Part shown: one piece after another, positions 14,594 through 29,628 of the stretch
How positions within the stretch are numbered: position 1 is the stretch's first letter
Layout of the letters: each line of letters starts with the position of its first letter
Virus record (IMG/VR): IMGVR_UViG_3300014499_000017
Span: 1 to 33,688 of that record
Direction: 5' to 3' (one strand)
DNA from: a virus
DNA length: 33,688 nt
Notes under the pieces: model-generated
Seen by the model: the letters and a program-made list of their open reading frames with translations, nothing else
The model's database searches: none
Told to the model about the DNA's origin: nothing
Position numbers and translations under genes: made by a program

Positions 14594-14667
14594 TAAAACT
14601 GCGATCAACGAGGAACATAAAAAATGAACTTAAAACTGCGATCAACGAGGAACATAAAAAATGAACT
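14594..14667 (+). repeat. Two tandem 37-bp repeats ahead of the initiator gene
   Basis: Two exact adjacent copies, unit starting TAAAACTGCGATCAACGAGG and ending ATGAACT. Each contains GAGG and an ATG about ten bases later. They could be a duplicated translation start, binding sites (iterons) for the downstream protein, or both. Bases 14457-14593 hold only the hairpin at 14519. Confidence 0.85.
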
Positions 14668-14719
14668 TAATCACTTTAAACATAAAACAACGAAAGAAGG
14701 AAGAGGTATTTCAATTTGA
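14624..14719 (+). CDS. Possible 31-codon leader peptide overlapping the initiator start
   Basis: From the ATG of the first repeat a 31-residue frame (MNLKLRSTRNIKNELNHFKH...) ends in TGA at 14717-14719, overlapping the TTG start of the next gene by two bases. The second repeat's ATG (14661) opens another 31-residue frame in a different phase, which ends at 14756 inside the next gene. Stop-start overlap suggests translational coupling, as for some plasmid rep genes. No protein homology is claimed. Confidence 0.35.
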   Translation: MNLKLRSTRNIKNELNHFKHKTTKEGRGISI

Positions 14720-15618
14720 ACATAAAACGCTGTATATCTTATACACAAAAGAATAATTCATTTCGATTAAAATGTCAAGAGAGAAAAGTAAGAGATATAA
14801 TTCCTACTATAAAGGAATTTTTAGATGATCCGGAAAAGTTTATTAGAGAGAATCTCAATAGATCTGAGATAGCTATTTTGGGTCATATGTTAGCTATGGC
14901 TAACTGTTTGAAGGATCTTTATCCAACTCAAGCTTATGTAGCAAACAAAGTTGGTATTTCTAGAGTACACGCTAATAAATCTTTTAGGACGTTACGAGAA
15001 TTTAAATTTGTAGATTATAACTATCGTCATCTGACATCATGTGAGTATAAAATTTCTAGTTATTTTGATGATCCAAAAGTTAGAGAAAAACTCAAGACAA
15101 TATTCAAAGCTTTATGGTATTTACCACTATCTTTATTAATGGCTCAGGAAGCTACTTTACAAGAACAGTTTACACAAGTTAAACAAATATATGAGGAAAA
15201 TAATAGAGAATATAACAATCGCTTTAAGATTCTTGAACATAACCTTGTTTACGGTGGGAAATTTGATAATTTTAATGTAACAACTCAGCAAATGGACTAT
15301 GAAAGGGATATCTTGGCAAGAAGCTTCGATTATGATTCGCATAATTCTCTCTCTTCTTCTTCCCATTCATTTTTGAATAAAAAATACATGCCTAGTGCTA
15401 TGGCCAAACGATTGGAAAATAAAGTTGATAACAAAGTTGTTAAGCAAGTTACGTGGGCTGTGAAGAATATTCACCCTTGTTGTGGTAGTTGTTTGGGTAA
15501 ATACTGTTGTGGTAGTTGTGAATTGAACAAGATAACTGGTCCATTGCCGCTTAGTGGGAATTTAAGGACGTGTGATAAAGTTCGTAAGTTAAGAATGGAG
15601 CTTGATGAAACTACATAA
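14716..15618 (+). CDS. Probable replication initiator / winged-helix DNA-binding protein
   Basis: About 300 residues from a TTG start at 14716, with GGAAGAGG about ten bases upstream; stops close the frame above and no ATG occurs before codon 58. Residues about 52-95 (SEIAILGHMLAMANCLKDLY, PTQAYVANKVGISRVHANKS, FRTLREFKFV) form a winged-helix of the type found in phage and plasmid replication initiators. The central part is helical. Near the C-terminus CCGSC occurs twice (255-259 and 264-268), a possible metal site, encoded by a repeated 15-base stretch. The tandem repeats just upstream would suit an origin or autoregulatory site. Replication role is inferred; a transcription regulator is the alternative. 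Confidence 0.5.
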   Translation: MNIKRCISYTQKNNSFRLKCQERKVRDIIPTIKEFLDDPEKFIRENLNRSEIAILGHMLAMANCLKDLYPTQAYVANKVGISRVHANKSFRTLREFKFVDYNYRHLTSCEYKISSYFDDPKVREKLKTIFKALWYLPLSLLMAQEATLQEQFTQVKQIYEENNREYNNRFKILEHNLVYGGKFDNFNVTTQQMDYERDILARSFDYDSHNSLSSSSHSFLNKKYMPSAMAKRLENKVDNKVVKQVTWAVKNIHPCCGSCLGKYCCGSCELNKITGPLPLSGNLRTCDKVRKLRMELDETT

Positions 15619-16742: not shown

Positions 16743-18093
16743 TCTTGCGATACAAATTCATCTTGATAAATTTAAGCCTAGACCTTATCAGGTTCCAATA
16801 ATGGACGCCATTGAAAATAAAGGTTATAAAAAAGTGGTTGCCATTTTACCACGACGTGCTGGCAAAGATGTTTGCGCTTTTAATTTGATAATAAGAGCTG
16901 CTTTAAAAAAGATAGGGGTCTACTATTACATATTCCCTACCTTTGCTCAAGCTAAGCGCGTTATTTGGGACTCAATAACAAATAATGGTGAGCGTTTTTT
17001 GGATTATATTCCTAAACAGTTAATAGCTGGTAGTAATAGCCAGGAAATGAAGATCACTTTAAAGAATGGGTCTCTCATTCAACTTGTGGGTTCGGACAAT
17101 TATGACGGTTTGGTTGGTACGAATCCACAAGGTGTAGTATTTTCAGAGTATGCATTACAAGATCCACGAGCATACTCATTTTTAAGACCTATTTTGGTGG
17201 CAAATAATGGATGGGCTTTATTTTTATCAACACCTCGTGGTAAAAATCATCTATGGGAATTATTTCAAATAGCATTAAATTCTCCGGATTGGTTTTGTTA
17301 TAAATTAACTGTTGAAGATACAGAACATATTCCTTTGTGGGAGATAGAAAAAGAGAAAGCTGAAGGTCTAATGTCGGATGATTTAATCCAACAAGAATAC
17401 TTTTGTAGCTTTGAAATGGGCGTAGAGGGATCATATTACGCTAAGTATGTTGATATAATGAGAGTTAAAAGACAAATTGGTCAAGTTCCGTGGGAGCCGG
17501 CATTCAAGGTTCACACTTGTTGGGATATTGGCGTTAGAGACAGCACAAGTATAATATTTTTTCAAAACATAGGACAAGTTGTCCGTATTATCGATTGTTA
17601 TGAAAAATCTAAAGAAGGATTAGAGCATTATGTTAAAGTTTTGGAGAGTAAGCCGTATGTTTATGGTAAACACATTGCTCCTCATGATATTAGGGTTCGT
17701 GAATTTGGTTCAGGCATCACAAGATGGGAGAAGGCAAGACAACTTGGCATCACTTTTACGCTTTCGAACGACGTATCAATTGTGGATGGTATCGAAGCAG
17801 TCCGAAGTTCACTTTCTAAAATCTGGATCGATGAAAACTCCTGTTCCACTCTTATCAAAGCTCTCGAAAATTATAGACAAGAATATGATAGCAAGAAAAA
17901 AATATACAAAAATCATCCCTTACATGACTGGTCATCTCATTTTAGTGATGCAATGCGATATTTATGTGTTACGTTATCAAAAACCAGAGATGGATTAACT
18001 CCAGAGGAATTAGATAAAAGATATCAAAAAGCTATGTACGGCAGCGATTCTAATATGCCAGCCATATTTCGAGAAGATGTACCTCATTATTAA
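16735..18093 (+). CDS. terL: Terminase large subunit
   Basis: A 452-residue packaging motor. The ATPase half has an adenine-binding/Q-like PRPYQ (16-20), a Walker A LPRRAGKD (38-45), a Walker B hydrophobic run ending in acid (VVFSEY, 134-139) and a coupling motif LFLSTPRGK (163-171). The nuclease half has WDIGVRDS (263-270) with two aspartates, and HDWSSHFSDAMRY (397-409) with the last metal ligand. The length and the PRRAGKD form fit the common phage terminase family. It cuts concatemeric DNA and pumps it through the portal encoded downstream. It is intact and has no intron, unlike the portal and capsid genes. Confidence 0.95.
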   Translation: MSNLAIQIHLDKFKPRPYQVPIMDAIENKGYKKVVAILPRRAGKDVCAFNLIIRAALKKIGVYYYIFPTFAQAKRVIWDSITNNGERFLDYIPKQLIAGSNSQEMKITLKNGSLIQLVGSDNYDGLVGTNPQGVVFSEYALQDPRAYSFLRPILVANNGWALFLSTPRGKNHLWELFQIALNSPDWFCYKLTVEDTEHIPLWEIEKEKAEGLMSDDLIQQEYFCSFEMGVEGSYYAKYVDIMRVKRQIGQVPWEPAFKVHTCWDIGVRDSTSIIFFQNIGQVVRIIDCYEKSKEGLEHYVKVLESKPYVYGKHIAPHDIRVREFGSGITRWEKARQLGITFTLSNDVSIVDGIEAVRSSLSKIWIDENSCSTLIKALENYRQEYDSKKKIYKNHPLHDWSSHFSDAMRYLCVTLSKTRDGLTPEELDKRYQKAMYGSDSNMPAIFREDVPHY

Positions 18094-18169
18094 AGGATCA
18101 CTGCAACAGAGTACGGTAAAATTTATCATTCAAAGTCGGGATTTAGGAGTCTGTTTTGGGGTATTTATA

Positions 18170-18198
18170 TTGAGAAAATGGCGTACTTATGCTATAAT
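18170..18198 (+). promoter_or_regulatory. Strong sigma70-type promoter for the HNH gene
   Basis: TTGAGA, 17 bp, TATAAT (perfect -10). Transcription would start about at 18205-18206, next to the ATG at 18207, giving a leaderless mRNA. No ribosome binding site precedes the ATG, in keeping with that. Confidence 0.7.
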
Positions 18199-18206
18199 TT
18201 AATATT

Positions 18207-19004
18207 ATGGTAAAGCATGGATTGCATAAATCACCTACATACTCTTCTTGGCGAGCAATGATAACTCGCTGCACAAATCCCAAACGTCCAAACTTTTATC
18301 TTTATGGTGGACGTGGAATAAAAGTTTGTGAGAGCTGGTTGAATTCTTTTGAAAATTTCTTAGCGGATATGGGCTTAAGGCCCGAAGCATATCAATTAGA
18401 TAGAATTAATACTGATGGTCATTATGAACCAAATAATTGTCGGTGGGCTACACCAAAAGAAAATTCTAATAATAGACGACAACAAGAAGATATTTGTACT
18501 GGCAAACAATTTGGTAGCTGGCTTGTGTTATCACCTACAAATAATAGGGATGGTAATGGTGGTTTAAAATATTTATGTAGATGCTCTTGTGGCTTCGAGG
18601 CTCTAGTTAAAAAGAAGGCTTTATTAAGTGGTGAATCTACTAAATGTAAAGAGTGCGCCAATTCTAGATATCTAAATGCCAATCAGGATGTTGTTGGAAA
18701 GAAATATAATAAATGGACTGTGGTTTCTATATTAAAAGAGAGAACGTCTCGTGGCAAGATACAATTTATTTGCAAATGTGAGTGTGGTAACATTTCATAT
18801 AAAATTAAGTACCAATTAGAAAATAATAGATCTCTTGCTTGTAGGAGTTGTGTAGCCTATGAAAGAGAGAGAAGATTTTGTGTTGAATGTAATTGCTTTG
18901 GTCATAAAATTATAGATTTAGAAACATCAGAATGCGATCTTCTTGGATTTTGTACTCGCTGTGATAAATTTAATCTTAAGTCTTATTTAAAACAAACTTA
19001 TTGA
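18207..19004 (+). CDS. Free-standing HNH homing endonuclease with zinc ribbons
   Basis: A 265-residue protein. Residues 5-92 match the phage HNH family: SSWRAMITRCTNP (13-25), YLYGGRGIKVCESW (31-44), F..FLADMG (48-56), then the active-site block LDRINTDGHYEPNNCRWAT (64-82) and ENSNNRR. The rest carries several Cys pairs (CRCSCG, CKEC; CKCECG, CRSC; CVECNC, CTRC), probably zinc ribbons for DNA recognition. It has its own leaderless promoter and sits between terL and the portal gene, 76 bp upstream of portal exon 1. It is outside any intron that I can define. It may cut intron-less portal alleles and so spread the adjacent portal intron. Confidence 0.85.
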   Translation: MVKHGLHKSPTYSSWRAMITRCTNPKRPNFYLYGGRGIKVCESWLNSFENFLADMGLRPEAYQLDRINTDGHYEPNNCRWATPKENSNNRRQQEDICTGKQFGSWLVLSPTNNRDGNGGLKYLCRCSCGFEALVKKKALLSGESTKCKECANSRYLNANQDVVGKKYNKWTVVSILKERTSRGKIQFICKCECGNISYKIKYQLENNRSLACRSCVAYERERRFCVECNCFGHKIIDLETSECDLLGFCTRCDKFNLKSYLKQTY

Positions 19005-19079
19005 TCTTGTGTAATTGTAATTCTAGACTAAAGTTGTAACAAATTTTTGTTGTTAAAATTTTATATTAGGAGACCAATT

Positions 19080-19199
19080 ATGTTATTCCCACAGCTTGGA
19101 CCACAATACTATGATGAAAGGGATAAGGGGATCCTGAGCCGCATGGAAGCCTTTTATAGTGAGTCCATCACTATAAATCAAGCTTTTTGGGGGGAGGCT
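19080..19199 (+). CDS. Portal protein, exon 1 (40 codons)
   Basis: TTAGGAGACC precedes ATG 19080. The 40 codons (MLFPQLGPQYYDERDKGILS...INQAFWGEA) are the N-terminus of a P22-type portal and end exactly on the codon GCT. Unspliced, the frame would stop at 19229. Joined to 19420 the protein reads ...FWGEA|DTDTRFYTGDQ with no gap. Confidence 0.85.
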
Positions 19200-19419
19200 A
19201 AAAAATTGGCCTCGTTAAATCTTCTCTGATTGACTTGGAAGCCTAAGGCGAAAGCTATGGCGACAGGGCGCAAGCGTAAGCAGCGTGATCGACTAAGTGA
19301 GAAGACCCTTAACTGGGATACGATAGTCAGAACAAGACAACGAAAGGTCTTGAGGGAATGTCGAAGAACTTCCCCGCCTAGAAATAGGTCAGTAAGCGAA
19401 AGCTGAAGTAACAGTTTTG
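19200..19419 (+). ncRNA. Group I intron in the portal gene (no endonuclease)
   Basis: 220 nt. P1: exon GAGGCT pairs with GGCCTC in the intron (19209-19214), with the required U.G pair at the 5' splice site. P3: CTTCTC with GAGAAG. P7: GACTA (19291-19295) with TAGTC (19324-19328). P8: CCC/GGG. It ends in G before the exon codon GAT. The start of the core (GTTAAATCTT...GACTTGGAAGCCTAAGG) is shared with the 212-nt capsid intron. There is no open frame inside. Splicing is inferred from these pairings and from perfect restoration of the protein. Confidence 0.88.
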
Positions 19420-21345
19420 GATACAGACACTAGATTTTATACTGGTGATCAAACATTGTGGAACGATCTTTATGGAAATCTTCCTGCTAATAGACGCCGT
19501 CAATTTAATTTCAACCGTATTATGCGTGTTATTAATATGATTTCTGGTCATCAAAGAAGAAATCGTAAATCTACTATAGTTACTGGAGTAGAAAATTTTG
19601 ATGATATGACAGCCGATCAATTTACTAAAATATTACTATGGATATCTCAAAATGAGGGCGTATTAGAAACGATATCAGAATCCTTTCAAGGGTCATTAGT
19701 TACTGGTATGAATCTATTACAAGTTTGGGTTGATTATAGAGCAGATCCAGTTTCGGGTAACATAAAAGTTGATAACTGTTCATATAATAGTTTTTTAATT
19801 GATCCTTATTTTAGAAAATCAGATCTTTCAGATTGTAATGCAATTTGGAAGCGTAGTTTTTTAACTAAAAGAGAATGTATATCGCTTCTTCCAGATCATG
19901 AAAATGAAATCATCGGACTTATAGGTAATGATTCTGGAACAGGAAGAGATGGTAAATTTCAATTCATGCCTGAAAGCTACAACTATGGTATGAAAAACTT
20001 ATTAACATATGATGAGTTTTATTATCGCGATTATAGATCTCAAAAGATGTTAGTTGATATTGAAACTGGAGAAAGCCAAGAATGGCGTGGAACTGGTAGC
20101 GACAATGAAGAAAAACTAAGATTATTTTTACATACATATCCCAGTATTACGGTTGTTGAACAAGATATTCCTACTGTTAACTTGGCTATAGTTGTTCAAG
20201 GAAAGGTAATGTACCATGGACCCAATCCATTGGGTATTGATCAGTATCCATTTGTGCCTGTTTTTGCTTATTATAATCCCCAGATGCCTTACTTCCCTTG
20301 GAGAGTTCAGGGAGTGGTGCGTGGGTTGCGCGATGCTCAATATTTATACAATAGGCGCAGAGTTATTGAACTGGATATTCTTGAAAGTCAGATTAACTCA
20401 GGATGGAAATATAAAGAGAATGCACTTGTTGATCCAAAGGATGTCTTCTTATCTGGACAGGGAAGGGGATTAGCCTTAAAAGAAGAAGCACTTATGTCAG
20501 ATGTAGAGCAAATTCTACCACCACAAGTTCCACCATCAATGATCGAGCTATCTAGGCTATTAGCACAAGAAGTTCAAGAAATTTCGGGTGTGAATGAAGA
20601 ATTACTCGGCAGTGCAACAGACGACAAGGCTGGCGTATTATCCATGTTGAGACAGGGCGCCGGTCTTACTACTTTACAGGTATTATTTGATAATTTAGAT
20701 AGAGCTCAAAAACTTTTAGGTAAATTGATGCTCGATATTATTCAAATAAACTTTACTCCTGGAAAAGTTAAGAAAATACTCGAAGGCCAAGAGCCGACTG
20801 AGCAATTTTATAATAAAGCTTTTGGTAAATATGATGCCGTCGTGGAAGAAGGCCTTAATACTTCTACTCAAAAGCAGATGAACTTTGCACAATTATTAAT
20901 GCTACGCGAAGCAGGATTGCCTATACCGAATGATCTCTTATTGGATGCCTCTACAATCCAAAACAAACAAAAACTTATAGACGCTGTTAGAAATAATGAG
21001 CAACAGCAAATGCAACAAGCGCAGCAACAAATGCAATTGCAAATGCAGGAAACTCAAGCTCGTATCGATTTAACTCAAGCTAGATCTAAAGCTGACGAAG
21101 GTTTAGGTTATGAACGTTTAAGTAGAATTGAAGAAAATAGAGCACTCGCGGTAGAGCGTCTGGCAGCTGCCGACAAAGATAAAGATATAGCATTCTTGAA
21201 TCTGGTAAAGGCTCTTAAAGAAGTTGATGAAATTGATTTACGTCAAGTAGAAAAATTATTAGCTTTATCTAATATTGTTAAACAAAGTGAAGTTAACACA
21301 GATAAAAATATTGAAGCACAAGAAACCGTACAGGAGCAAATATGA
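19420..21345 (+). CDS. Portal protein, exon 2
   Basis: Spliced portal is 681 residues, the size of P22-type portals. The exon begins DTDTRFYTGDQTLWNDLYGN and continues LPANRRRQFNFNRIMRVINM ISGHQ, a highly recognisable N-terminal block of this family. The body includes HGPNPLGIDQYPFVPVFAYY and a stem/wing region VVRGLRDAQYLYNRRRVIEL. EISGVNEELLGSATDDKAGV precedes the tunnel region. The last 130 residues are a Gln/Ala-rich coiled coil (QQQMQQAQQQMQLQMQE), like the P22 portal barrel. Twelve copies form the packaging channel. The TTG at 19417 is intron sequence, not the start. The end overlaps the next gene by four bases. Confidence 0.93.
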   Translation, partial: DTDTRFYTGDQTLWNDLYGNLPANRRRQFNFNRIMRVINMISGHQRRNRKSTIVTGVENFDDMTADQFTKILLWISQNEGVLETISESFQGSLVTGMNLLQVWVDYRADPVSGNIKVDNCSYNSFLIDPYFRKSDLSDCNAIWKRSFLTKRECISLLPDHENEIIGLIGNDSGTGRDGKFQFMPESYNYGMKNLLTYDEFYYRDYRSQKMLVDIETGESQEWRGTGSDNEEKLRLFLHTYPSITVVEQDIPTVNLAIVVQGKVMYHGPNPLGIDQYPFVPVFAYYNPQMPYFPWRVQGVVRGLRDAQYLYNRRRVIELDILESQINSGWKYKENALVDPKDVFLSGQGRGLALKEEALMSDVEQILPPQVPPSMIELSRLLAQEVQEISGVNEELLGSATDDKAGVLSMLRQGAGLTTLQVLFDNLDRAQKLLGKLMLDIIQINFTPGKVKKILEGQEPTEQFYNKAFGKYDAVVEEGLNTSTQKQMNFAQLLMLREAGLPIPNDLLLDASTIQNKQKLIDAVRNNEQQQMQQAQQQMQLQMQETQARIDLTQARSKADEGLGYERLSRIEENRALAVERLAAADKDKDIAFLNLVKALKEVDEIDLRQVEKLLALSNIVKQSEVNTDKNIEAQETVQEQI

Positions 21346-26287: not shown

Positions 26288-26325
26288 ATGGCTATAACTA
26301 CTACGAGCACATTGCCCTCTCCGGT
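26288..26325 (+). CDS. Major capsid protein, exon 1 (12 codons plus 2 nt)
   Basis: TTAAGGAGCC precedes ATG 26288; the codons read MAITTTSTLPSP plus GT. Unspliced, the frame stops at once (PVN-stop). Joined to 27086 it gives ...LPSPVQQSFSYKLL, the N-terminus expected for N4-gp56-type capsids. Confidence 0.8.
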
Positions 26326-27085
26326 AAACTGAGTGCCGGAATAAAACTGAAGGTGATTACATGGAAAGTCTAAACATAAATTCCAAGGTGTGCTATACTC
26401 ACAGTAAGTACAACACACATATAAATAAAGGGAATTTATGCAAGATAACCAGAGGCAAACGCATTGGGCATATATCGCAGGCATTATGGACGCAGATGGG
26501 TGTTTTATGATAGGAAAATATAATAGGAAGACTAAAAGAAGGACTACGGAAAGAGCATTAGCTTTTCCAACAAATCTTTCTCAATGGAATCCCGTTTATT
26601 TGCCTACCGTTAAAATAGCCATGGTGGAACCAGAAGCCATAGACTTCATTATGAATGATATGAAGTTTGGATCTATGACTCTTGATGGCGCTCGTAAAAA
26701 TAGGCCTAACTGTAAACCTATTTTTCATTGGTATATACGAAGCAGAGAAGCAATTATTCCTTTTTTAGAGGGGATTATTCCCCATCTAAGAGTGAAAAGA
26801 AATAGAGCAGAACTGTTACTGGAATTTAGCAAGCATATTAAAAATGAAGGCGTTCCTGGATATCGTGGTACCTCTGATAACGAGCTAAATTACCGAGAGC
26901 AATCGTATGTTAAAATACGAGAGCTTAATGGTAATAAAGTAGCCGCAACGACTAAGTCCTTTAGACGCGAGAGCGTAAGCGATAGTCTCAACTTATAGGA
27001 AACTATAAGAGGATTGATCGAAGTATTGATCCCGCCAGAAATGGTCAGTAGGGTTTAAGTTTATAGGCCTGAAAGTAAGAGAATG
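26326..27085 (+). ncRNA. Group I intron 1 in the capsid gene, with endonuclease gene
   Basis: 760 nt. P1: exon TCCGGT pairs with GCCGGA (26335-26340), six pairs with U.G at the splice site. P3: GTCTAAA with TTTAGAC. P8: ACGC-GAGA-GCGT. P7: GACTA with TAGTC. It ends GTAAGAGAATG. The LAGLIDADG gene lies between P3 and P7, its last codons overlapping the P7-P8 region. Confidence 0.87.
26438..26998 (+). CDS. LAGLIDADG homing endonuclease in intron 1 (single motif)
   Basis: A 186-residue protein with AAAGGGA before the ATG and an extended -10 box (TGCTATACT, 26391-26399) upstream, so it may be made from its own transcript. One LAGLIDADG motif (YIAGIMDADGCF, 12-23) is present, then a body with HWYIRSREAIIPFLEGIIPH LRVKRNRAELLLEF. 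One motif implies a homodimer acting on a near-palindromic site, or a maturase role. The unit is similar in plan to each half of the endonuclease in intron 3. The 3' end of the gene doubles as ribozyme core. It should cut capsid genes lacking intron 1. Confidence 0.85.
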   Translation: MQDNQRQTHWAYIAGIMDADGCFMIGKYNRKTKRRTTERALAFPTNLSQWNPVYLPTVKIAMVEPEAIDFIMNDMKFGSMTLDGARKNRPNCKPIFHWYIRSREAIIPFLEGIIPHLRVKRNRAELLLEFSKHIKNEGVPGYRGTSDNELNYREQSYVKIRELNGNKVAATTKSFRRESVSDSLNL

Positions 27086-27284
27086 GCAGCAAAGCTTTAG
27101 TTACAAATTACTTTCGGTTCCAGTTCCGAACATGATTCACAAGATCCCTGCGATGCTAAAACAAATGCCTCGTAATGGTGGTACAACATTGCGTATGAGA
27201 AGATATAATCCTTTAAATACAGCTATGGTTCCACTTGGAAACTCCGGTGTCACTCCTCCACCGCAAAATTTAACAGCTGTGGAT
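27086..27284 (+). CDS. Major capsid protein, exon 2
   Basis: 199 nt completing codon 13 and running to codon 79: VQQSFSYKLLSVPVPNMIHK, IPAMLKQMPRNGGTTLRMRR, ...PPPQNLTAVD. The MPRNGGTTLRMRRY block is typical of the N4-gp56 family N-terminal arm. The ATG at 27132 is internal. The exon ends on a full codon (GAT). Confidence 0.87.
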
Positions 27285-27496
27285 AAATACTATGTCCACG
27301 TTAAATCTTTGGTAATCGACTTGGAAGCCTAAGGTATATGCTAAGGTTACAAGGGCCAAGCAGGGCAACCGTGCAGGCTGAGAGACTAAACCCAGAGAAG
27401 TCGAAAGACTATGTGATAGTCCAACCTCTGATCGAAAGACAGAGAGGTAGCAGAAATGACTACCCGCCACATAAGTGGTTAACAAGTAATAGATTG
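27285..27496 (+). ncRNA. Group I intron 2 in the capsid gene (no endonuclease)
   Basis: 212 nt. P1: exon GTGGAT pairs with GTCCAC (27294-27299), U.G at the splice site. P10: CTAT just before that guide can pair with exon 3's ATAG. P3: CTTTGG/CCAGAG. P7: GACTA/TAGTC. It ends GTAATAGATTG. Its core opening is nearly the same as in the portal intron. No open frame of its own. Confidence 0.88.
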
Positions 27497-27571
27497 ATAG
27501 ATGCAAAGATAAGTTTCTATGGAACTTATGTACAATTGTCTGAACAAGTAACGTTGCAAAACCAAGACCCT
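27497..27571 (+). CDS. Major capsid protein, exon 3 (25 codons)
   Basis: A 75-nt exon encoding IDAKISFYGTYVQLSEQVTL plus QNQDP, in phase at both ends. FYGTY...EQVTLQNQDP is a conserved capsid segment. Reading on without splicing gives KQMNLVFA and a stop. Confidence 0.87.
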
Positions 27572-27636
27572 AAACAAATGAACCTGGTTTTTGCATAACA
27601 AGATTCACTTGATCTTTTAATATAACCCATGTAAAC

Positions 27637-27664
27637 TTAGTTATATGAATAAATGTATAACTGA
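27637..27664 (+). promoter_or_regulatory. Hairpin abutting the endonuclease ribosome binding site
   Basis: TTAGTTATA and TATAACTGA form a 9-bp stem with one G.U pair; the last two bases belong to the GAGGGA ribosome binding site of the gene at 27673. It may hold down translation of the endonuclease from the long capsid transcript, as known for the T4 td intron. Confidence 0.4.
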
Positions 27665-27672
27665 GGGAACAG

Positions 27673-28920
27673 ATGGAAAAAGAGAATATAAAAATGGCAT
27701 ATCTAGCGGGACTTATGGATGGCGATGGAAGTTTTAGTATTATCAAGCATAAGACTAAGGCTAGTCCTCTCTATTATCCGTTCCTGCAGTTTGTAAGCTG
27801 GAAGAAAGACGTGATTGATTTTTTAACAACAGAACTTAGTGGAAGTGTCACTATAACTAAGCCTTGTACTCGTAAAGATGGCTCATTAGGACATCTTATG
27901 TATCGTTGGAGAATAAGAAGTCATGATAACGTTAGACCTGTTTTGGAAAAACTTATTCCCTATCTGCGCATTAAATCTGAGCGAGCAAAATTTCTGCTTA
28001 GTTTTATAAATCAAACACCATTTGAAAGAGGGAAAAGATTATCTGATGATAAACTCGTTGAAAAAGAACGTGCTTATATAAAGATGGTTCAATCTAACGA
28101 CTGGACTTCGTTTGATAACACTTTAACTACCCAGATAGCAAAAGTTATTAGTGAAGATAGCGTTTTTTGGTCTTATTTGGCTGGTATTATGGATACTGAT
28201 GGATCTTTTTCTGTTAAATGTCAAAAGCAGAATAAAGGAACGCACGTTAAAAACCATAGATATCTACCAATAATAAGTATTTCATCTACAGATACTCGTG
28301 CCATAAATTATATTCGTGAGAATTTTCCTTTAGGTAAACTATATATACCTAAAAATAAAGACTGTTCCGCTGGATTTCATTATCAATATGGAATTTATAC
28401 CAAGAAAGAATGTTGTGAATTCCTAAAAAGAATCATTCCATTCTTAAGGGGCAAAAAAGAAAATGCTGAAGTTTTGCTAAATTTTTGTGAAAACTCAGTG
28501 AACACTTTATATTGCCGCGATGGTATTTCTTCTAAAGAATTGGAATTCAGGCATGAATGTTATATTAAATTAGTTTCTCTTAATAAGTATGGGGTCTCTA
28601 AATCTTCTCTGATAGACTTGAAACCCTTACCAGATAATGCTGGAGGCAACAAGGGGCAAGATATGAATTACTGCGATAAATGTTACTCGGAAAATCATTT
28701 CGATAGTATAATGTGCCAAGCTACTACTCTTGAATCTATGTTGGATTTTATTAAAGAAGTTCCATATAGAAATTTTAAAGTAGTTTATAGGGGTCACTCA
28801 GAAAATACTTACGAATTGTATGTAGCATCTTGTTGTTGGGGTTCAGATCAGCCTGAACGTAGTAAGCGAGAAGACCTTGAAAAAGGATGCGGTACTCTGA
28901 ACATTGCAGAAATGCAGTGA
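27673..28920 (+). CDS. Double-motif LAGLIDADG homing endonuclease in intron 3
   Basis: A 415-residue protein with GAGGGA four bases before the ATG. Two LAGLIDADG helices, YLAGLMDGDGSF (10-21) and YLAGIMDTDGSF (168-179), each start a unit with a RIRS/GIYT strand and a VLEKLIPYLRIKSERAKFLL-type helix, so it acts as a monomer. The endonuclease proper ends near residue 305. The frame then continues through the guide sequence and ribozyme core to 28920, adding about 110 residues with a Cys-rich start (MNYCDKCYSENHFDSIMCQA). This tail is partly dictated by RNA structure, partly by an insert in the P6 region. It should target capsid genes lacking intron 3. Confidence 0.87.
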   Translation: MEKENIKMAYLAGLMDGDGSFSIIKHKTKASPLYYPFLQFVSWKKDVIDFLTTELSGSVTITKPCTRKDGSLGHLMYRWRIRSHDNVRPVLEKLIPYLRIKSERAKFLLSFINQTPFERGKRLSDDKLVEKERAYIKMVQSNDWTSFDNTLTTQIAKVISEDSVFWSYLAGIMDTDGSFSVKCQKQNKGTHVKNHRYLPIISISSTDTRAINYIRENFPLGKLYIPKNKDCSAGFHYQYGIYTKKECCEFLKRIIPFLRGKKENAEVLLNFCENSVNTLYCRDGISSKELEFRHECYIKLVSLNKYGVSKSSLIDLKPLPDNAGGNKGQDMNYCDKCYSENHFDSIMCQATTLESMLDFIKEVPYRNFKVVYRGHSENTYELYVASCCWGSDQPERSKREDLEKGCGTLNIAEMQ

Positions 28921-28992
28921 GGGAAGCTAAATAAACTTCCTCGCCAATTGTGCAGCAGCTGCTGCGTAATTGGTCATAAAAGTAACAGATTG

Positions 28993-29628
28993 GTATTAAA
29001 CGAATGTGCTGCAAGATTGGGTGTATCACTTCGTCAGACAGAAGATCAGTTGACTAGAGACATGCTTGCGAGCACCGCCTCTTTCATTAACTGTACAGGC
29101 GGAGTTAATGGGGATGTCCCGACTGAAATAACACGTTCTGATGTTGATACAGTTGTTAGAGCTTTATTAAATAATAATGCCTATACAATCATGGATAACA
29201 TTGAGGGTGAAGATAAGTTTGGTACAGCTCCAGTTCGTGATGCGTATTTTGCGTTATCATCAACTCAGCTTACCGGTAACCTTGATAACGTTTCCGGATT
29301 TATACAAAAGAACCAATATCCAGCTCCAATGAATGCATTGCGTTCAGAATGGGGTGCTATTGGTAACTTAAGATTCTTAATATCTTCTATTGGATCCGTT
29401 TCACCTAATGCCTCTTCTTTAGGTGCTGATGTTTACAATATTTTCTGTGTTGGAATGGAAGCTTATGCTTGCATACAACAAGATGGATATTCTGCTAGCT
29501 TCATTTATCGCCCACCGATATATGATGGTCCATTAGCATTGAATGCTTCTGTTGGTTATAAATTTGCGGAAGTACCTCGAATCACTAATGATTTGTGGGT
29601 ATTAAACTTACGTGCAACATTAGCTTAA
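28993..29628 (+). CDS. Major capsid protein (N4-gp56 family), exon 4
   Basis: 211 codons. The spliced capsid protein is 315 residues: exon junctions read LPSP-V-QQSF, LTAVD-IDAKI and QNQDP-VLNEC, all uninterrupted. Exon 4 begins VLNECAARLGVSLRQTEDQL TRDML and includes TASFINCTGGVNGDVPTEIT RSD, DKFGTAPVRDAYFALSS and the final WVLNLRATLA, all recognisable in this capsid family. The protein forms the HK97-fold shell on the scaffold. The ATG at 28948 is in the intron and is not a start. Apart from the portal, it is the only intron-bearing gene found here. The next gene starts 13 bases later. Confidence 0.93.
   Translation, partial: VLNECAARLGVSLRQTEDQLTRDMLASTASFINCTGGVNGDVPTEITRSDVDTVVRALLNNNAYTIMDNIEGEDKFGTAPVRDAYFALSSTQLTGNLDNVSGFIQKNQYPAPMNALRSEWGAIGNLRFLISSIGSVSPNASSLGADVYNIFCVGMEAYACIQQDGYSASFIYRPPIYDGPLALNASVGYKFAEVPRITNDLWVLNLRATLA

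Follow-up and report, generated by a model that had tools for sequence, protein, structure and literature searches.

An ORF-less group I intron in a phage portal gene and its relationship to introns of the capsid gene

The 33.7-kb phage record analysed here (33,688 nucleotides in full, termed the window) bears a P22-type portal gene in which the N-terminal 40 codons are separated from the body of the gene by 220 nt. This raises the questions of what the intervening stretch is and how it arrived in the gene. How endonuclease-free group I introns reach new genes is an old question for which data are thin. The clade of this phage offers one intron family at dozens of mapped sites, empty alleles and fast change of P1, rendering the prediction made by reverse splicing testable; the first such test in the clade, given below, provided no support for it.

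The interruption of the portal gene

The portal locus is composed of three parts.

19080-19199, + strand: portal exon 1, 40 codons, GAGGCT being its 3' end, next to the 5' splice site; joined directly to exon 2 in homologues
19200-19419, + strand: ORF-less group I intron, the last base being the terminal G of CAGTTTTG; empty-site alleles, covariance model (CM) match and structure counts
19420-21345, + strand: portal exon 2, P22-type portal, PF16510/phrog_156 (Pfam E=1.1e-72, PHROG E=1.1e-68, spliced ORF)

Splice translation across exons 1 and 2 produces an uninterrupted portal protein of 682 aa, the intron ending in CAGUUUUG at the 3' splice site and the spliced junction reading GAGGCT followed by GATACA. 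The coordinates reported for the interruption in a first-pass annotation proved exact, and the comparison with intron-less portal alleles suggested there identified, among the loci examined, 101 homologues that are contiguous across the junction. Portal genes are split in this region only in the window and in L020/L101, which are one and the same record and in which the intron occupies a different site, 16 nt downstream; the site used in the window is occupied in no other phage among these loci. Similarly, 79 of the first 80 portal relatives obtained from IMG/VR have no gap between the two portal parts. An exact empty site in portal homologues and a terminal G of the intron, both expected of a group I intron, are observed. 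No endonuclease ORF is present within the 220 nt.

The elements of the intron are arranged as follows.

19194-19199, + strand: exon strand of P1, GAGGCU, with U.G at the splice site; 6-bp pairing with the guide at 19208-19213
19208-19213, + strand: internal guide sequence (IGS) GGCCUC, the 3' strand of P1; sequence pairing
19220-19305, + strand: P3 (UCUUCUC, 19220-19226, with GAGAAGA, 19299-19305) around P4 (from 19234), P5 and P6; covarying helices
19291-19295, + strand: 5' strand of P7, GACUA, inside the stretch enclosed by P3; covarying helices
19306-19328, + strand: P8 (CCC with GGG, 19306-19317) and the 3' strand of P7, UAGUC (in AUAGUCAG, 19323-19330); P7 pseudoknot paired in 15 of 15 introns
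19333-19389, + strand: P9 (CAAGAC/GUCUUG), P9.1 (GGGAAU with UUCCC) and P9.2; structure counts

Fourteen other compact introns, 13 of them from relatives and one being capsid intron 2 of the window, were aligned with the portal intron. RNAalifold returned P3, P4, P5, P6, P8, P9, P9.1 and P9.2 from these 15 introns, and the P7 pseudoknot was added by hand. In the core from P3 to P9.2, including the pseudoknot, 98.3% of the cells are paired, a value which falls to 41-48% when the partner is shifted by one column. Both-sided changes occur at 32 pairs, with 146 double-changed cells compared to 45 expected (0/500 shuffles), and the covariation score is 0.673 and 0.199 in the observed and shuffled alignments, respectively (0/500). 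Thirteen introns of other phages, and no window sequence, went into a covariance model, which matched the portal intron at 126 bits (E = 7.8e-34). With the complete set of helices, this match and the lack of an ORF, the earlier assignment to group I introns without endonuclease is upheld. Searching the portal intron with Rfam RF00028 gave no match at E<=1, and within its own genome only a weak match, to capsid intron 1, was obtained, below the cut-off. The RF00028 miss is a limit of the general model, not the absence of a defining structural feature.

P1 was also considered across the intron family. Guides pair with their own exons at 5.8 of 6 positions versus 2.7 of 6 with exons of other sites, the own-exon figure being inflated because P1 also served to place the 5' ends. 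Compensatory changes in P1 within a single site, for example GGAU/GUCC and CGAU/GUCG at MCP237, are less affected by this bias. At the level of sequence, 19200-19419 is confirmed as a compact ORF-less group I intron in a P22-type portal gene, and splicing is predicted.

The intron family in the window and in relatives

Three further introns interrupt the major capsid gene of the window.

26288-29628, + strand: major capsid gene; splice translation, phrog_1357
26288-26325, 27086-27284, 27497-27571 and 28993-29628, + strand: capsid exons, joined into an intact 315-aa protein
26326-27085, + strand: capsid intron 1 with a LAGLIDADG ORF (26438-26998), P1 UCCGGU/GCCGGA; CM match 26920-27017, weak RF00028 match, spliced capsid ORF
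27285-27496, + strand: capsid intron 2, ORF-less, P1 GUGGAU/GUCCAC, same family as the portal intron; CM E=3.2e-29, site MCP nt 237 common to relatives
27572-28992, + strand: capsid intron 3 with a LAGLIDADG ORF (27673-28920); CM matches 28598-28733 and 28801-28920, sequence

The one model derived from relatives recognises all four introns of the window, with parts of capsid introns 1 and 3 matched at 3e-8, 4e-7 and 5e-5, and membership of the four in one family is confirmed. In capsid intron 3 the IGS GGGGUC (28591-28596) pairs with exon GACCCU more than 1 kb upstream, and the endonuclease gene starts within the P1 loop. Both LAGLIDADG genes of the window lie on the capsid-gene strand; in relatives many LAGLIDADG genes in capsid introns are on the opposite strand (L009, L014, L019, L026, L028, L033, L052, L058, L063, L069, L077).

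Matches to this model are distributed all along the capsid genes of relatives. A pattern scan of IMG/VR added at least 119 contigs, with intron boundaries set from P1, the conserved tail and restored reading frames, and at least 82 compact introns were resolved. The capsid gene contains more than 20 well-mapped intron sites, some more in distant capsids being approximate, the portal gene at least four (nt 120, which is that of the window, 129, 136 and 1302) and terL one among the matches listed (L064, nt 798). Exon and guide changed together at single capsid sites, for example nt 237, 354, 93 and 684.

Individual relatives differ in the number and placement of these introns. The capsid gene of L033 (identical to L120 and L230), at 17825-20388, carries about five to six full introns and one micro-insert, and a contig binned to Patescibacteria (L204) carries two family introns, at 14638-14774 and 14914-15069, 140 nt apart. 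Closely related family introns occupy one site in one gene, following CAAGACGCU, in L085, L089, L130, L142, L149, L156, L162, L178, L182, L187, L188 and L190. When named phages were searched for relatives, one clear case only was found, the public podovirus record MW202674.1 (L208), in which two CDS are annotated for the P22 coat protein and an unrecognised family intron lies between them, at 16872-17088. The closest portals in genome assemblies (60-68%) are those of L201 and L202, contigs binned to Chlamydiia/Simkaniaceae, a hint at the host which may also reflect a binning error. Insertions of 800-1200 nt at several positions in terL (L007, L045, L054, L063, L065, L076) are without intron signals and were excluded; ends such as VHN followed by S suggest that they are inteins.

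The relationship of the portal intron to the capsid introns was analysed in a tree of 80 introns, occupying 42 sites among the matches listed, from which P1 was left out and among which capsid intron 3 is not included. The portal intron groups with the L058 capsid introns at MCP nt 432 and nt 279 (bootstrap 99, SH-aLRT 62-72; among the matches listed), SH-aLRT support for the exact sister being moderate. Its identity to the L058 intron at nt 432 is 82-85%, and the portal gene of L058 is intron-less. This group lies within a clade of 27 introns (99/97) containing no other portal-site intron by gene mapping, one member, L193_4762, being unplaced by gene mapping and located just upstream in a portal gene region. 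Capsid intron 2 falls among other introns of the capsid gene, the highest-ranking BLAST match to it being the intron at the same site in L053. Topology tests reject both sisterhood of the portal intron with capsid intron 2 (AU p=0.021) and a single clade of the portal introns of five phages (AU p=0.0005), and disfavour a grouping of the portal intron with those of L020 and L034 (p=0.025); they involve short alignments and groups partly named after the BLAST results were seen. Internal recombination among family introns may also blur the tree. The fewest gene changes on the intron tree is four. As the portal introns do not form one clade, the family has moved between genes repeatedly. Homology of all portal introns at one site was likewise rejected, the four portal sites having separate ancestry.

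These results both extend and correct the first-pass annotation, which had described the core opening of the portal intron as nearly identical to that of capsid intron 2, matched its P3 to that of capsid intron 3, regarded the introns as relatives that moved between virion genes and suggested a tree of the cores. The likeness of the openings is real (75% over 69 nt) but resides in a stretch conserved in nearly all family introns. The P3 match holds, UCUUCUC being present in both introns, and is likewise a family-wide feature. Membership of one family and movement to new sites are retained, and the tree rejects monophyly of the portal introns; the direct link to capsid intron 2 is not retained, as the tree also rejects that sisterhood, and a move within one phage is therefore not supported either. 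An ectopic move of the portal intron is well supported.

Route of movement into the portal gene

If introns are inserted as RNA under direction of the guide, kin introns at different sites are expected to share 5'-exon letters. Over the 42 sites, sharing of 5'-exon targets among kin introns was not above chance (p=0.32-0.48); for the 3' exon the closest pairs gave p=0.07, and flanking controls were null. Values of p = 0.07-0.8 were obtained in Mantel-type tests covering both the 5' and the 3' exon as well as the controls, and the guide of a kin intron shows no better pairing to the new exon than a random guide does (cross-pairing p=0.14-0.55). Judged from these comparisons, reverse splicing followed by fast change of P1 would still be compatible with the data.

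Two routes are each tentatively considered, at the same level, for the ectopic move. The first is reverse splicing at the RNA level, in which free intron RNA would enter portal mRNA at a site matching the IGS and then be copied back to DNA. It is a textbook proposal for intron spread (PMC3984707, PMC1299323), and a route independent of an endonuclease is required here. The portal target GGAGGCU is also the target of a capsid intron at MCP nt 783 in L119, whose IGS would pair with it over 7 bp. However, cross matches of at least 6 bp occur in 1.4% of intron/exon pairs, such that one match among some 40 sites is unremarkable, and the L119 intron is not the sister of the portal intron of the window; it was rejected as donor, its core being sister to the L020 portal intron. 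Reverse splicing is further weakened by the lack of excess 5'-exon target sharing over the 42 sites, unlike fungal rDNA, and a source of reverse transcriptase for the phage would have to be accounted for.

The second is illegitimate recombination at the DNA level, whereby intron DNA would have entered the portal gene and selection would have kept, and then refined, a working P1. This requires no target similarity, the clade is rich in HNH and LAGLIDADG nucleases able to cut DNA, and the compensatory P1 changes within single sites indicate that P1 is easily refined. Against it, no direct trace was seen, and a non-splicing insertion in an essential gene should be lethal, so that some initial match is required.

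Collaborative homing, in which an HNH enzyme encoded upstream would cut intron-less portal genes at this site and so spread the intron, involves one further gene.

18207-19004, + strand: gene for a free-standing HNH endonuclease, immediately upstream of the portal gene; phrog_374 E=1e-55, beside 8 intron-less portals

Phages are known in which an intron lacking an ORF is paired with a free-standing endonuclease (PMC3984707), and here the HNH gene adjoins the portal gene. In eight relatives, however, the same HNH gene lies in the same place beside an intron-less portal, indicating that it is not tied to the intron, and no HNH match is found beside the portal introns of L020 and L034. Collaborative homing is therefore considered improbable.

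Still less probable is an origin of the portal intron by direct copying of capsid intron 2 (or 3) of the same phage; the introns share family, opening and genome, but the rejected sisterhood and the closer L058 capsid introns argue against capsid intron 2. Least probable of all is an old, vertically inherited portal intron lost in nearly all relatives, since the introns of other phages at the neighbouring positions nt 129 and 136 occupy different sites and are not kin of that in the window, and 101 portals are without the intron.

Combined, the data are best explained by an endonuclease-free self-splicing intron that is an ectopic copy from a capsid-centred family, with P1 matched to the portal exon, a reading to which we assign a probability of roughly 0.85. 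Members of the family reside chiefly in the major capsid gene in this clade of phages, the portal gene having probably been reached by an ectopic move from a capsid-type intron. After portal codon 40, the IGS would pair with the last six exon bases, P1 now being fitted to the new exon. As suggested by the anatomy, a guanosine in P7 would attack after the U and the freed exon would then attack after the terminal G, thereby restoring the reading frame. From its present place, the portal intron has no visible means of homing.

Micro-inserts in relatives and comparison with known systems

In at least 30 distinct capsid genes of relatives, an insert of 28-41 nt follows TACGGT at capsid nt 264; the window contains full introns of the family and no such insert. 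Among the matches listed, 30 of 30 micro-inserts end in G and 29 of 30 contain the guide GCCGUA, the remaining one having a wobble version. None at nt 264 can be read through, and they start like P1 (TACGGU/GCCGUA). A full intron is present in the same gene in 9 of 9 cases with a micro-insert versus 6 of 21 without (Fisher p=0.0007), in a portal-ascertained sample in which only 30 of the capsid genes were detected by the match pattern.

When the next intron is at nt 290, the 3' half of the micro-insert pairs with exon sequence whose end lies 8 nt upstream of that intron. Pairing in this set averages 9.5 bp (one bulge allowed) versus 6.9 when partners are shuffled (p=0.0005), and compensatory changes occur in the micro-insert/exon pairing. 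When the next intron is at nt 314 or 350, pairing moves to the exon 7-8 nt before it, for example CUGAUUCUG/CAGAAUCAG. Carriers at nt 264 with pairing of about 8-11 bp include L009, L014, L026, L028, L033, L052, L053, L092, L093 and L136, as well as L163, L225, L238, L249, L253, L255, L256, L273 and others. The nt-314 set is composed of L019, L064, L069/L265, L105, L141, L176, L209 and L214, and that at nt 350 or nearby of L007, L087 and L267, the latter placements being read from the sequences, as they went unmarked in the motif search. In distant capsids (L112, L127, L152, L168), the same layout is visible by eye at other sites, and it is also seen, with the insert being longer, in portal genes (L106/L175, L193); P1 in these inserts has compensatory change (GUCGAU/GUCGAC, GUGGAU/GUCCAC).

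Translational bypass was rejected for the micro-inserts, as their terminal G is constant and a matching glycine landing codon is lacking. From the pairing pattern, it is possible that they are core-less introns removed by the core of a neighbour. Tentatively, the family may be an RNA system that invades virion genes without a protein of its own, P1 being remade each time and cores also serving core-less satellites. The satellites would be inserts of 28-41 nt, some longer, possessing only P1 and a second guide (helix B), and helix B would pair with exon sequence about 8 nt ahead of the following full intron such that one core removes both. In the literature searched, no precedent was found for core-less satellite introns dependent on the ribozyme of a neighbour.

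Related introns in different genes of one phage are represented by those of td, nrdB and nrdD in T4. The genes concerned are not those occupied by the present family, and the sites are far fewer in T4. The T4 introns are named in work on cluster J mycobacteriophages, which have group I introns in capsid and tail genes and for which the Tuc2009 capsid intron is cited (PMC3706429). The cluster J and Tuc2009 introns resemble those described here in residing in virion structural genes and are spliced during late expression (PMC3706429). Cluster J phages contain one or two introns each, whereas here a single capsid gene (L033) holds up to about six, and siblings occur in portal and terL.

In fungal rDNA, group I introns have spread to new sites by reverse splicing (PMC1299323), and related introns at many heterologous sites are common to both systems. 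The fungal donor and new sites share 4-8 nt of 5' exon (PMC1299323), whereas the whole-family test performed here detects no such sharing. Group I introns, some of them without an ORF, are similarly located in genes of tailed phages, for example among the 45 intervening sequences described in Bastillevirinae (PMC11878797), and splicing of several has been demonstrated in infected cells or in vitro. In comparison, the sites occupied here by one family number in the dozens, most of them within one capsid gene, the portal gene is occupied in at least three branches, and with the general Rfam model the family stays below threshold. Group I introns in the capsid and tail genes of phages are thus already known and the portal intron adds to them; what is unusual here is how widely the family has spread within one gene, together with the micro-inserts, the latter being potentially new.
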